Position numbers and translations under genes: made by a program. The notes under the pieces are model-generated. The model ran no database searches. It saw nothing but the letters and a program-made list of their open reading frames with translations, and was not told where the DNA came from. Shown in pieces: positions 2,968 to 28,677 of a DNA stretch of 32,326 bases (its first letter is position 1; every line of letters begins with the position of its first letter). Where the stretch lies: the NCBI GenBank assembly GCA_018303655.1, contig JAGVXT010000013.1, positions 1 through 32,326 on the forward strand, in the 5' to 3' direction. Source of the stretch: Candidatus Woesearchaeota archaeon (lineage in GTDB: Archaea; Nanobdellota; Nanobdellia; Woesearchaeales; GW2011-AR4).

Positions 2968-4116
2968 ATGGCACAAGACAAAATGCAGGGTGTGAAGCCC
3001 ACAGAATTAAAAGATGATTTAACAGAACAGATAGACGACGACCTACTAAAAAAATCAAGAGAGTTGCTAAAAAGTGTGAACCCTGCTGTTAAAGACAAGC
3101 AACAAACACTTAATACATTTATTGACCCATACACTCCGAAGCCCTATGGAAGCAAAAAAACTTATCCACAGGATGATTGGTCATTATATGCTAAATCTCT
3201 TGGTAGAGAAAAAATAAATTCTCTTGTTATAATCAACGATGGAATTGATTTTTTGAACATTGGCTACAAGTATAAAGGAAATGGCAGACCACCTGTTGAT
3301 TTAAATGAAATTGCAAAATCTCTCGTTTTTGGTTCTTACAATAACTTTTCTTCTTGGAAAGTTGAAAGTGAATTGACATTGATAGCGCAGGCGATGGGAA
3401 TAATAGATAAGATACCTGCAAGAAGCACGTTTAACAAATATCGGAAAGACCCTGCATTAACTCCAATTCTTGAAAGATTATATAAGTTAATGGCAGAACC
3501 TCTTGCACCACTTGAAGACACCTTCATTGCGGACTCTTCTGGTATAAGCAACAGTTATGGAAACAAAAAATGGCGTGAAATCAGGCATAAAAAGGAAGAA
3601 CAAAAAGAGAGAAGAAAATTTAGTAAAATTCACATAATGATTGGTGCAAAGACAAAGATAATTTCTGCTGTCTTAATTACAGAAGGTTATCAGCACGAAA
3701 ACCGCACTTTAATCCCATTATTAAATGAGACTGCAAAAATATTTGACCCCGAGAGGGTATTGGCAGACGCAGGTTTTCTATCAAAAGGCAATGCGAAGGC
3801 AATTGCTGACATAGGCGCAGTTCCATACATCAGAACTAAAAAGAATGTTCATACTCCTATGAAAGGAGTTACCTCTGCCTATGGTAATATGTTAAGGGAA
3901 CAAAAAATCAATTCTACTATGTTTGATAGGATATATAATAAGCGTGCAATTGTTGAAGCGGTGTTCAGTTCTTTTAAGAGAACAAGGACTTCTTTTTGCA
4001 GGTCAAAATATCTTGTTAGCCAGAGAAATGAACTTCTTGCTAAAGTTGTGTGCCACAATGCCTCAATTTTAAGCCGAATGTTGTTGCGCCACAATTTGAA
4101 GTGCAAATTTCTATAG
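2968..4116 (+). CDS. DDE-type transposase (IS5/IS1182-like superfamily)
   Basis: FIADSSGI, VLADAGFLSKGN and YNKRAIVEAVFSSFKRTR give a D-D-E arrangement. Confidence 0.75.
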   Translation: MAQDKMQGVKPTELKDDLTEQIDDDLLKKSRELLKSVNPAVKDKQQTLNTFIDPYTPKPYGSKKTYPQDDWSLYAKSLGREKINSLVIINDGIDFLNIGYKYKGNGRPPVDLNEIAKSLVFGSYNNFSSWKVESELTLIAQAMGIIDKIPARSTFNKYRKDPALTPILERLYKLMAEPLAPLEDTFIADSSGISNSYGNKKWREIRHKKEEQKERRKFSKIHIMIGAKTKIISAVLITEGYQHENRTLIPLLNETAKIFDPERVLADAGFLSKGNAKAIADIGAVPYIRTKKNVHTPMKGVTSAYGNMLREQKINSTMFDRIYNKRAIVEAVFSSFKRTRTSFCRSKYLVSQRNELLAKVVCHNASILSRMLLRHNLKCKFL

Positions 4117-4154
4117 AGTTTATAGCCAAAGCCCGATTTTTGGAAACTTTTTTA

Positions 4155-5414
4155 ATGTCTTTAAGTTTAGCAGAAAACATGCTAATAGGAATTGTCGGAA
4201 AACCAAGCTGCGGAAAGAGCACTTTCTTCAATGCCCAGACTCTTGCGAATGTGGAAATTGCAAATTATCCTTTCACCACAATAAAGCCGAACCACGGCAC
4301 CGGCTATGTAAGAGTTGATTGCGTTGACAGGGAATTTAATACAAAGTGCAATCCGAGGTTTGGATACTGCATTGAAAGCAACAGGTTTGTGCCTGTTGAG
4401 CTGCTTGATGTTGCTGGCTTGGTTCCTGGAGCTCATGAAGGCAAGGGCATGGGCAACCAATTCCTTGATGACTTGAATCAGGCAGATGTATTAATACATA
4501 TAATCGATGTTGCAGGCTCTACAAACGAGAAAGGCGAGTCAGTTCCTGCATTAAGCTACAATCCTGCAAATGACATAAAGTTTCTTGAGCATGAATTGGA
4601 CATGTGGTATTTAAGATTGATAGAGAAAGGCTGGGAGAGGTTTGCAAGGACTGTAAACCAGGAAAGGCCGGAGCTGAAAAAAGCTGTTGCAAAGCAGCTA
4701 AGCTCATTCAGGGTTACTGAAACCTTGATGGAAAAAGTTATCCAGAAATTAGATCTTGACGCTGATATAATGAAATGGGACAAAAATATTCTTCTCAAAA
4801 TAGCGACAGAGCTCAGAAAGGCGACAAAGCCCATGGTAATAGCCTGCAACAAGATAGACGTCAAAGGCGCTTATGAAAATTTTGAAAGGCTGGAAAGGGA
4901 GTTTTCACAATATTTGCTTGTGCCGTGCAGCGCAGAGGCGGAACTGGCTTTGAGGGAGGCTGCGAAGCATGAATTAATCAAATACATCCCAGGTGATAAC
5001 AATTTTGAAATTATAAGCGAAGAAAAACTGTCGAATGCGAGTGAGCTAGTGCGAACTCGCTCACAACTCACTGAAAAGCAGAAAAATGCATTGAATTTCA
5101 TAAAAATAGATGTGCTTGGCAAATTTGGCTCAACCGGAGTGCAGAAAGTACTTGACATTGCAGTCTTTGACTTGCTTAAGTATGTCGCAATATTTCCAGG
5201 CGGTGTGAACAAGCTTGAGGACCAGCACGGAAACAGGTTGCCGGACTGTTTTTTGATGCCTCCTGAAACAACAGCTCTTGATTTCGCCTTTAAATTGCAC
5301 ACAGACATAGGAAAGAATTTTGTAAAGGCAATTGATGTAAAAAGCAGAAGGCCTGTTGGGAAAGACTTCATTCTGAAAAACAGGGATGTTATAGAAATTG
5401 CGACAAGCAAATGA
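4155..5414 (+). CDS. YchF/Obg-family GTPase/ATPase with C-terminal TGS-like domain
   Basis: GIVGKPSCGKSTFFNAQT (P-loop), LLDVAGLVPGAHEGKGMGNQFLDDLNQADVLIHIIDVAGS, C-terminal DFAFKLHTDIGKNFVKAIDVKSRRPVGKDFILKNRDVIEIA; start re-assigned from ORF start 4050 to avoid overlap with the transposase. Confidence 0.85.
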   Translation: MSLSLAENMLIGIVGKPSCGKSTFFNAQTLANVEIANYPFTTIKPNHGTGYVRVDCVDREFNTKCNPRFGYCIESNRFVPVELLDVAGLVPGAHEGKGMGNQFLDDLNQADVLIHIIDVAGSTNEKGESVPALSYNPANDIKFLEHELDMWYLRLIEKGWERFARTVNQERPELKKAVAKQLSSFRVTETLMEKVIQKLDLDADIMKWDKNILLKIATELRKATKPMVIACNKIDVKGAYENFERLEREFSQYLLVPCSAEAELALREAAKHELIKYIPGDNNFEIISEEKLSNASELVRTRSQLTEKQKNALNFIKIDVLGKFGSTGVQKVLDIAVFDLLKYVAIFPGGVNKLEDQHGNRLPDCFLMPPETTALDFAFKLHTDIGKNFVKAIDVKSRRPVGKDFILKNRDVIEIATSK

Positions 5415-25792: not shown

Positions 25793-26410
25793 ATGAGCAA
25801 AATAATTGATTTTTTCAGGGAGAATTGGATTGGAGGGGTAGTAGGAGGGGTACCATTATTACTGATCTCGTGGCCAATTCTTTTAGATTTTTGGTTTCCT
25901 CTAATCCCGGCGCTTCTTTTGGGTATGACTTTAGGAGCATTCATTAATAAATCTGCAAGAAGTGGCAAATATCTTTATGTCACTCTTGCCGTGCCTCTTT
26001 ATTTGGCGGTGTTACTATTCATGATTGCGCCCTATGGTGTTATAGAACTTCCCGTTGATTTACCATACAGGTGTAATTTTGAAAAGGGTTTGCAATGTTT
26101 AGAATATGAAATATCCAAGGACAGGGGAATTACGTTTACTGTGAGAAATAATTATAATGACACTATTTTATTGAATTCTGTGACATTCAAGAATTTAATC
26201 TCCAATGAAATTGTATCTTGCTTGAATCAACCATCTTTTCCCATGCAACTTAGGAAAATTGAATCAGTTTCAATTTCATCTAAAGAATGTTCCCTTTCTA
26301 ATGAACCAAAGGATAAAATAGGTTTGTCGATAGAATTGAATTATTTAATTGGTAATTCACTGGAGGAACAAGTTGCTCACGGAGAAATATTCACTTCCGT
26401 TGGAAAATAA
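25793..26410 (+). CDS. Membrane-anchored hypothetical protein with GLxCxxY C-terminal domain
   Basis: Hydrophobic N-terminal segments; CNFEKGLQCLEYEISKDRGITFTVRNNYND. Confidence 0.6.
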   Translation: MSKIIDFFRENWIGGVVGGVPLLLISWPILLDFWFPLIPALLLGMTLGAFINKSARSGKYLYVTLAVPLYLAVLLFMIAPYGVIELPVDLPYRCNFEKGLQCLEYEISKDRGITFTVRNNYNDTILLNSVTFKNLISNEIVSCLNQPSFPMQLRKIESVSISSKECSLSNEPKDKIGLSIELNYLIGNSLEEQVAHGEIFTSVGK

Positions 26411-26414
26411 AAAA

Positions 26415-27197
26415 ATGCCGAAACCAAAACTCAAATTAGGATTTTACGGAATAACAGGATGCGCAGGCTGCTTATTGTCGGTCATATTCAACGAGGATGA
26501 AATTCTTGATTTAATTCAATTAGTTGACCTGAAGGCATTCCCATTCATAAAGGAAGTAAATCCGGACGAGCAGTTCGATTACGTGTTTATGGAAGGATTG
26601 GTGGCTGACAAAGGTGATTTGGAGGAGCTTGAAAAGCTCAGGCAAAACACAAGATACATTGTGTCATTGGGGGCATGCGCATGCACTGGCTGCGTGCCTG
26701 CATACAGGCAATTTACCCTAAAGGAAAATTACGAGCATTTGTTGTATCGGAAGCAAAAAGAAGTTGAAGACATCCAGCCAACTCCGATAGACGCGCATGT
26801 CAAAGTGGACTATTACATCCCGGGCTGCCCTCCTGACAAAAGGGAAATTGTAACGTTCATAAAAAACATAGCGATAGGCAAAGAGCCAAAGCCGTATGAA
26901 AATCCCGTATGCGTTGAATGCAGGAAAAACGGCAACCAATGCCTGCTTGATTTGGGAAAGCCGTGCCTTGGCCCCATCACCGCCGGCGGGTGCAACTCTG
27001 TATGCATTAACGGCAATTTTGAATGCTGGGGCTGCAGAGGGCCAACAAAAGACATGAATTTGCCATTGATGATAAAAATTTTGAAGGAGAAAGGATTCGA
27101 CGACAAGTTCATACAGGACAGGATGAGGACTTTTGCAGGATTAAAGCTGCCGATGCTTGAGCAATTTTTTAATGTTAAGGTCAATGTAAAATGCTAA
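26415..27197 (+). CDS. hydD: [NiFe] hydrogenase small (delta) subunit
   Basis: GITGCAGCLLS, GACACTGCVP, PGCPPDK, CVEC, CLLDLGKPCLGPITAGGCNSVC; start re-assigned from 26349 to 26415. Confidence 0.93.
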   Translation: MPKPKLKLGFYGITGCAGCLLSVIFNEDEILDLIQLVDLKAFPFIKEVNPDEQFDYVFMEGLVADKGDLEELEKLRQNTRYIVSLGACACTGCVPAYRQFTLKENYEHLLYRKQKEVEDIQPTPIDAHVKVDYYIPGCPPDKREIVTFIKNIAIGKEPKPYENPVCVECRKNGNQCLLDLGKPCLGPITAGGCNSVCINGNFECWGCRGPTKDMNLPLMIKILKEKGFDDKFIQDRMRTFAGLKLPMLEQFFNVKVNVKC

Positions 27198-27210
27198 TAT
27201 TAAAAAATTC

Positions 27211-27368
27211 AATCCGTCCCTTTGGGACATTAGCCAGTGCTTGGCTTTGCTGTCTGCCACACGCAAAGCCTCGCAGATTTATTCATTATTTCAATGAATT
27301 CCTTCGAGGCGAAAATTCAATGGCAGTAGAATTTTCGCCGAGTGAATCTTATGTCCGAAGGACGGATT
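27211..27368. repeat. MITE-like multibranched palindromic element
   Basis: Terminal AATCCGTC/GACGGATT plus GACAT/ATGTC; internal hairpins GGCTTTGC/GCAAAGCC, ATTCATT/AATGAAT, GGCGAAAATTC/GAATTTTCGCC; flanked by ATTAAAAAATT at 27199-27209 and 27366-27376. Confidence 0.6.
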
Positions 27369-27402
27369 AAAAAATTAAAAGTTAAATAGGCAAAAACTGA
27401 AA

Positions 27403-28677
27403 ATGCCAAAAACAATAACCTTAAACCACATAACCAAGATAGAGGGGCATGCGAAACTTGAGATTGGGGTAGAAAGAGGTGGAATAACAAAGTGCCAGCT
27501 TTCTGCAGTCGAAGGCTCAAGATACTTTGAAGGGCTCGTCAGGGGAAGGAAATTTTTTGAAGCGCATGAAATAACCTCAAGAATCTGCGGCATCTGCAGC
27601 TGCGCGCATGTAATTGCAGCAATAAGCGCTGTTGAAGACGCTTTGAATTACAAGCCAAGCGAGCAAACTTTGCAATTAAGAAAGCTCCTTACTTTAGGAG
27701 AAAGAATAAGGAGCCACGCTACCCATCTTTACTTTCTTGCCTTGCCGGATTATCTTGGCTATGAGTCTGCATTGGCAATGGCTTCCAAATACAGGCCGCA
27801 GCTCCAGAATGCATTGAATTTGATGAAAACAGGCAATTTGGCAATTAAAATTATAGGCGGCAGGGACCTGCATCCTGTATCAGCAACCGTTGGAGGCTGG
27901 CTCAAGCTGCCAAAAAAATCTGATTTGCTGATTATCGGGAAGCAGCTGGAATCTGCAAAAGCGGATGCAATAAAAACATGCAAACTGTTTTTCTCTTTGA
28001 AGTATCCGGAGTTCCAAAGCAGGACGGAGTGTTTTTCCTTGATTGACAAAAATTCCTACGCTGTTCTTGAAGGCGAGTTTTCATCAGAAAAGATCTCTTT
28101 CAGAAAATCCCAGTATAAAGAATTTATTAACGAGTACCACGAGCCAAGGTCAACTGCCAACTTTGTCGTGAAAAGCGACCACAGGTACATGGTGGGCGCG
28201 TTATCGAGGCTGAACAACAGCCATAGGAAGCTCAGCAAAAATGCGAAAAAAATGCTCAAGCTGTCAAAGATAAGGCTGCCTTCAAAAAACCCGTATTTGA
28301 ATAATGTTGCGCAGGCAATTGAGATTGTGCATTGCATTGACGAAGCAATCAGGATATGTGAAAATCTTAATATCAGGAGCGAGGCTGTGGAAAAACCGAA
28401 GCTCAAAGCAGGCAATGGAGTTGGCGCGATTGAAGTTCCAAGGGGCACTTTATGGCATGATTACACTATAAATGATAATGGAGTCATAACAAATGCAAAC
28501 ATAATAACGCCAACAGCGCAGAACCTTTTGAACATACAGGAAGATATAAGGGATTTTGTGCCTTCTGTAGCAAGCAAAAGAAAAGAGAAAATTGTGCTCG
28601 AGGTTGAGAAGCTGATAAGGAGCTACGACCCTTGCTTCTCGTGCTCTGCGCATTTCTTGGAAGTGAAATGGTCGTGA
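27403..28677 (+). CDS. hydA: [NiFe] hydrogenase large (alpha) subunit, group 3b-like
   Basis: L1 RICGICSCAH, L2 DPCFSCSAH followed by extension FLEVKWS. Confidence 0.95.
   Translation: MPKTITLNHITKIEGHAKLEIGVERGGITKCQLSAVEGSRYFEGLVRGRKFFEAHEITSRICGICSCAHVIAAISAVEDALNYKPSEQTLQLRKLLTLGERIRSHATHLYFLALPDYLGYESALAMASKYRPQLQNALNLMKTGNLAIKIIGGRDLHPVSATVGGWLKLPKKSDLLIIGKQLESAKADAIKTCKLFFSLKYPEFQSRTECFSLIDKNSYAVLEGEFSSEKISFRKSQYKEFINEYHEPRSTANFVVKSDHRYMVGALSRLNNSHRKLSKNAKKMLKLSKIRLPSKNPYLNNVAQAIEIVHCIDEAIRICENLNIRSEAVEKPKLKAGNGVGAIEVPRGTLWHDYTINDNGVITNANIITPTAQNLLNIQEDIRDFVPSVASKRKEKIVLEVEKLIRSYDPCFSCSAHFLEVKWS

Follow-up and report, generated by a model that had tools for sequence, protein, structure and literature searches.

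A likely member of a lineage-restricted family of modular palindromic mobile elements lies between two archaeal hydrogenase genes

Rickettsia palindromic elements (RPEs) are palindromic, non-autonomous sequences comprising several families, many of whose members lie in frame within protein genes, and no dedicated transposase is known for those bearing a CGTC tag (PMC10969869, PMC3733652). In the REP system the RAYT (Y1) enzyme recognizes REP DNA in its single-stranded form, and some REPs are situated inside other palindromes (PMC3733652). The mitochondrial double-hairpin elements of Allomyces, in turn, lack flanking duplications (PMC2800124). At the level of individual hairpins, template switching is a documented route by which complementary stems are both created and kept (PMC8794818), and GNA hairpins of the d(GCGAAGC) type have been dealt with elsewhere (PMC10527192). 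A description of the element family reported here was not found in the literature searched.

The window, namely the entire 32,326-nucleotide stretch of Candidatus Woesearchaeota DNA that was analyzed, contains between two hydrogenase genes a complete 164-bp element with the ends TTCAATCCG...CGGATTGAA, formed by two inverted half-units of ~80 bp. A sequence-only reading of this DNA had described near-complementary ends, three internal hairpins of 8, 7 and 11 bp, and two copies of an 11-bp flanking repeat, all of which are indeed present, the hairpins corresponding to the stems of H2, H3 and H4 and the repeats to the two copies of ATTAAAAAATT in the following inventory:

26349-27197, plus strand: upstream gene with an Oxidored_q6 domain, hydrogenase small-subunit type (gene call and domain)
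27199-27209, no strand: left copy of ATTAAAAAATT, not a target duplication
27208-27371, plus strand: class I element, complete, two inverted half-units flanking a central hairpin (sequence and 31-copy family alignment)
27208-27216, plus strand: left terminal inverted repeat TTCAATCCG, kept across the family
27216-27228, plus strand: terminal hairpin H1, GTCCC-TTT-GGGAC, its stem differing from copy to copy
27240-27242, plus strand: junction strand P2, CTT here and CTC in most copies, pairing with 27340-27342 (family pairing)
27243-27270, plus strand: hairpin H2, GGCTTTGC/GCAAAGCC, stem 27243-27250/27263-27270
27271-27307, plus strand: central hairpin H3, TCG/CGA plus ATTCATT/AATGAAT, stem 27281-27287/27293-27299
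27308-27339, plus strand: hairpin H4, GGCGAAAATTC/GAATTTTCGCC, stem 27308-27318/27329-27339
27340-27342, plus strand: junction strand GAG, pairing with 27240-27242 (family pairing)
27353-27363, plus strand: terminal hairpin H5, GTCC-GAA-GGAC, with a GNA-type loop
27363-27371, plus strand: right terminal inverted repeat CGGATTAAA, kept across the family
27366-27376, no strand: right copy of ATTAAAAAATT, overlapping the terminal repeat
27403-28677, plus strand: downstream gene, NiFe hydrogenase large subunit (gene call and domain)

The loops of H2 and H4 carry the conserved motifs CTGCCA (27254-27259) and TGGCAG (27321-27326), respectively, and the ATG of hydA is located ~31 nt past the end of the element. 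The folding comparison proposed by the earlier reading showed that the element folds far beyond chance on both strands, with z = -6.1 (plus) and -8.2 (minus) relative to shuffles when folded as RNA, and z = -6.6 and -7.6 on the two strands when folded as DNA, where 0 of 200 shuffles folded equally well on either strand.

Sequence searches recovered additional copies, both whole and partial, from the same genome, and a query with two of its copies led to many more module sites (59 matches). Among relatives, matches were found in 22 of 59 genomes, its own genome counted in, and in none of 23 genomes from other families of the same order. An alignment of 31 complete copies was assembled, and a core model built from the family, R1, matched 25 of the 36 genomes that represent the family, all genomes compared being incomplete assemblies, and 0 of 233 other genomes sampled from the class (E <= 1e-5); per-genome counts from R1 overstate copy number because some matches represent one site read on both strands. 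Viral contigs gave no match to two exact element patterns. The consensus consists of two inverted half-units of ~80 bp, each comprising TTCAATCCG, a small hairpin, TAGTGCTCGGC, a CTGCCA-loop arm and GCCTCGCC, around an AT-rich center. A second form, class II, unites one half-unit with a domain of the form ACGAGAGCGACTTTT...AAAAGTAAACCGCTT. The copies at L087, L090 and L104 are themselves nested in a larger palindrome (TACTTTAG..CTGAAG / CTTCAG..CTAAAGTA), which constitutes a further level of nesting.

Comparison of one orthologous site reveals that the main element varies there between species in both presence and class. Between moxR and DUF58, class I elements are found in genomes G000, G002, G006, G009 and G016 and class II-type elements in G017, G018, G013 and G004, and no element is present in G007, where the gap is 48 nt, or in G008, where the two genes overlap. 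Filled and empty sites can be paired cleanly in the case of accessory palindromic modules, one of which lies in the window itself:

5031-5069, plus strand: accessory palindromic module B, 39 bp, in frame (13 codons) within the Obg-like GTPase gene at 4050-5414 (length of relatives and empty site)

The matching stretch of this YGR210-type GTPase gene spans 570 nt in the window versus about 531 nt in relatives, and G005 displays the exact empty site, AAACTG/ACTGAAAAG. The module encodes SNASEL...TRSQLT, and the same peptide ends recur in a 105-nt in-frame insert in the FKBP-type isomerase gene of G000, which is absent from the readable relatives, several others having no recovered frame. The third of the in-frame insertions in protein genes is a 57-nt insert in the Lhr helicase of G000; G013 has an insert of like architecture but with different arms at the same place, which is empty in 13 genomes of the same genus. 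Upstream of rps19e, G004 carries a 148-bp double-hairpin insert (module C, with ends TGTCAAAA...TTTTCGACA), and G010, near-identical otherwise, shows an empty site with neither duplication nor loss, i.e., two adjacent hairpins were inserted free of duplication. Modules are also found inside the loops of H2 (L128, L142), H3 (L129), H4 (L004, L005, L134) and H5 (L092, L140). Palindromic in-frame inserts within coding genes are restricted to the accessory modules, the main element overlapping a called gene in none of 82 copies with flanks. As separate observations, two loci in the same genome as the window (L040, L050) show module B close to the N-terminal end of a secreted-type protein and module C where a methyltransferase-like ORF ends, and the loops of the 148-bp insert at L246 contain ACCAGTCAAAGACTGGT and ATCAGTCATAGACTGAT hairpins that are perhaps IS200/IS605-like ends.

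On the whole, the family is multi-copy, dispersed, lineage-restricted, palindromic and mobile, and its accessory hairpin modules enter new sites without target duplication; the search for copies and empty sites suggested from the sequence alone was answered by clean filled and empty pairs for the modules and by variation at moxR-DUF58 for the main element. The window copy itself was compared with distant empty loci only, namely those of G040 and G037 from other families, in which hydD and hydA abut without the element; searches of other genomes of the genus did not recover the hydrogenase gene, and the named relatives of the hydrogenase found were distant bacterial matches only. Judged by the behavior of its family, the window copy would likewise be mobile, and we consider it likely that it belongs, as one copy, to a non-autonomous family of palindromic, modular mobile elements confined to this lineage.

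The genomic context of the copies bears on whether they might instead be upstream DNA regulatory elements, such as operators or boundaries, which were spread by transposition and kept in the vicinity of promoters. According to the codon-usage gene predictions made in this analysis, 53 of the 82 copies lie between tandem genes, 18 between divergent genes and just 6 between convergent genes, with 5 undetermined. This distribution, together with the avoidance of called genes, would suit such a role, as would the class II elements, whose ends are usually directed at the start codon and which recur beside rps19e in several species. Against it, some species have no element at the same site (the moxR-DUF58 cases above, and G012 at rps19e), and compact genomes offer little other space in which insertions would be tolerated, leaving this explanation improbable. 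The copies often end ~25-35 nt from a start codon, and those in tandem contexts are antisense to the flanking genes in 37 cases and sense in 16; this orientation bias and the recurrence at rps19e make some function for the elements conceivable. The class II domain was seen near rps19e at L235, L239, L244, L245, L246, L248 and L249, the species concerned including G010 and G004, which gave no R1 match. Upstream of rps19e (L235, L239, L244-L248) there is in addition a conserved stretch, GCTAAC...GTTAGCC...CACCGCAAGGTG, which may be a leader RNA or a small RNA and for which no Rfam match was obtained in the loci tested.

The pairing pattern of the family addresses the other possibility raised from the sequence alone, namely that of a structured RNA. 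In the named structure across the 31 sequences, 101 cells are changed on both sides versus 34 in shuffles; all 8 pairs of H2 show double changes in some family copies, and 99% of H4 cells are paired. This conservation of the fold with compensatory changes indicates that the structure of the element is real. RNA helices usually tolerate far more G-U pairs than are seen here: among ~1,970 core pairs in 82 copies, 1,828 are Watson-Crick, and G-T (13) and A-C (15) mispairs are equally rare. With G-U no commoner than A-C, unlike in ordinary RNA helices, the pairing appears to be kept at the DNA level, the yardstick being the G-U content usual for RNA helices in general, and the structure is more likely maintained as DNA. 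When read outward, 80 of 108 called terminal hairpins have a c(GNA)g loop and a single one the complementary c(TNC)g; for H1 this loop appears on the opposite strand in 42 of the 51 copies with a called hairpin. The terminal stems, by contrast with these retained loops, are freely rewritten between copies, with 19 different sequences on the right and 22 on the left. GNA-closed mini-hairpins of the d(GCGAAGC) type are unusually stable as DNA. A kissing-loop RNA formed by CTGCCA and TGGCAG was considered and rejected, since H2 and H4 represent the same half-unit in opposite orientations, from which the complementarity of their loops is expected.

A structured regulatory RNA, selected for its folding in the 5' leader of a gene or between the genes of an operon, has in its favor the strong fold and its covariation, to which the frequent spacing of ~25-35 nt from start codons and the orientation bias may be added. 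This reading appears still less probable than a DNA regulatory element, given that both strands fold, that G-U is not favored over A-C, that the neighboring genes are many and different, and that presence at one site differs between species. A search of Rfam 15 yielded no match above the gathering score and one weak match far below the cut-off, and a tRNA/tmRNA search of the element found none. The copies are not tied to hydrogenase genes, and the results do not support an RNA with a role specific to the hydrogenase.

The least probable account is that of a classical MITE, i.e., a DDE transposon shortened by deletion, which the transposase of its parent moves through the terminal repeats with target duplication: the family does share with MITEs its small size, terminal inverted repeats, dispersed and multi-copy intergenic occurrence and variable presence, and its dispersed copies with terminal inverted repeats are what a MITE would lead one to expect, but it has no known parent transposon, no autonomous copy was seen in the loci examined, the module insertions are clean, and a target duplication signal is lacking. 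The 11-bp ATTAAAAAATT had been taken for such a duplication and was rejected as one, since its right copy begins inside the terminal repeat (CGGATT) and hence is not a clean flanking duplication, and since flanking direct repeats across 49 copies with clear ends showed no clear excess over shuffled pairings.

Returning to a non-autonomous palindromic mobile family, its movement probably involves single-stranded DNA. The form recognized would be a folded single strand, each outward-reading end of which is capped by a c(GNA)g mini-hairpin, and a trans-acting enzyme encoded by the host or by an IS could mobilize this strand. Switching of templates from one hairpin arm to the other might rewrite the stems with complementarity retained. 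If the element influences hydrogenase expression, this would follow incidentally from its insertion a short way before hydA. Some family genomes have Y1 transposases, but none were found in several element-rich ones (incomplete assemblies), and the Y1 flanks that were read had other ends, with neither element-type ends nor an autonomous partner with the same ends among them; 31 of the 36 family genomes yielded no reverse transcriptase. Both enzymes were rejected as mobilizers for want of consistent co-occurrence with the element. A bolder and, in our estimate, rather unlikely generalization is that the mobile units are recognized by single-stranded DNA shape, i.e., GNA-capped mini-hairpins and fixed loops and not stem sequence, that the loops of other hairpins serve as their insertion sites, that their arms are rewritten by template switching, and that nested hairpins thereby grow and diversify within an archaeal lineage.

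Since loops and pairing outlast the changes in its stems, the family lends itself naturally to testing whether compensatory changes originate in mutation through template switching or in RNA selection, a question that matters to anyone who takes covariation to prove that an RNA is functional. Among known systems, the family is closest in behavior to the Rickettsia palindromic elements and the mitochondrial double-hairpin elements. REP/REPIN sequences are likewise palindromic, but the family has neither GTAG nor CGTC as a fixed tag, its occurrence is not followed by that of Y1 genes, and ends like those of the element were not seen in the Y1 flanks that were read. Mitochondrial double-hairpin and other repetitive hairpin-forming elements share with it short hairpin modules and lineage-restricted bursts; in sponges, however, double-hairpin elements have conserved stems and variable loops, whereas the terminal hairpins described here have conserved loops and variable stems. 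With RPEs the family shares palindromic, non-autonomous units and in-frame inserts in protein genes. RPEs are bacterial with CGTC-tagged ends, whereas this family is archaeal and joins two half-units in inverted orientation, its loops being conserved and its stems rewritten, and its consensus ends reading CCGT and then variable (a distinction drawn from the consensus); furthermore, it is the accessory modules that insert in frame, the main element being seen only between genes. The family represents an archaeal counterpart to the in-frame Rickettsia palindromic elements, one for which relatives provide clean pairs of filled and empty sites.
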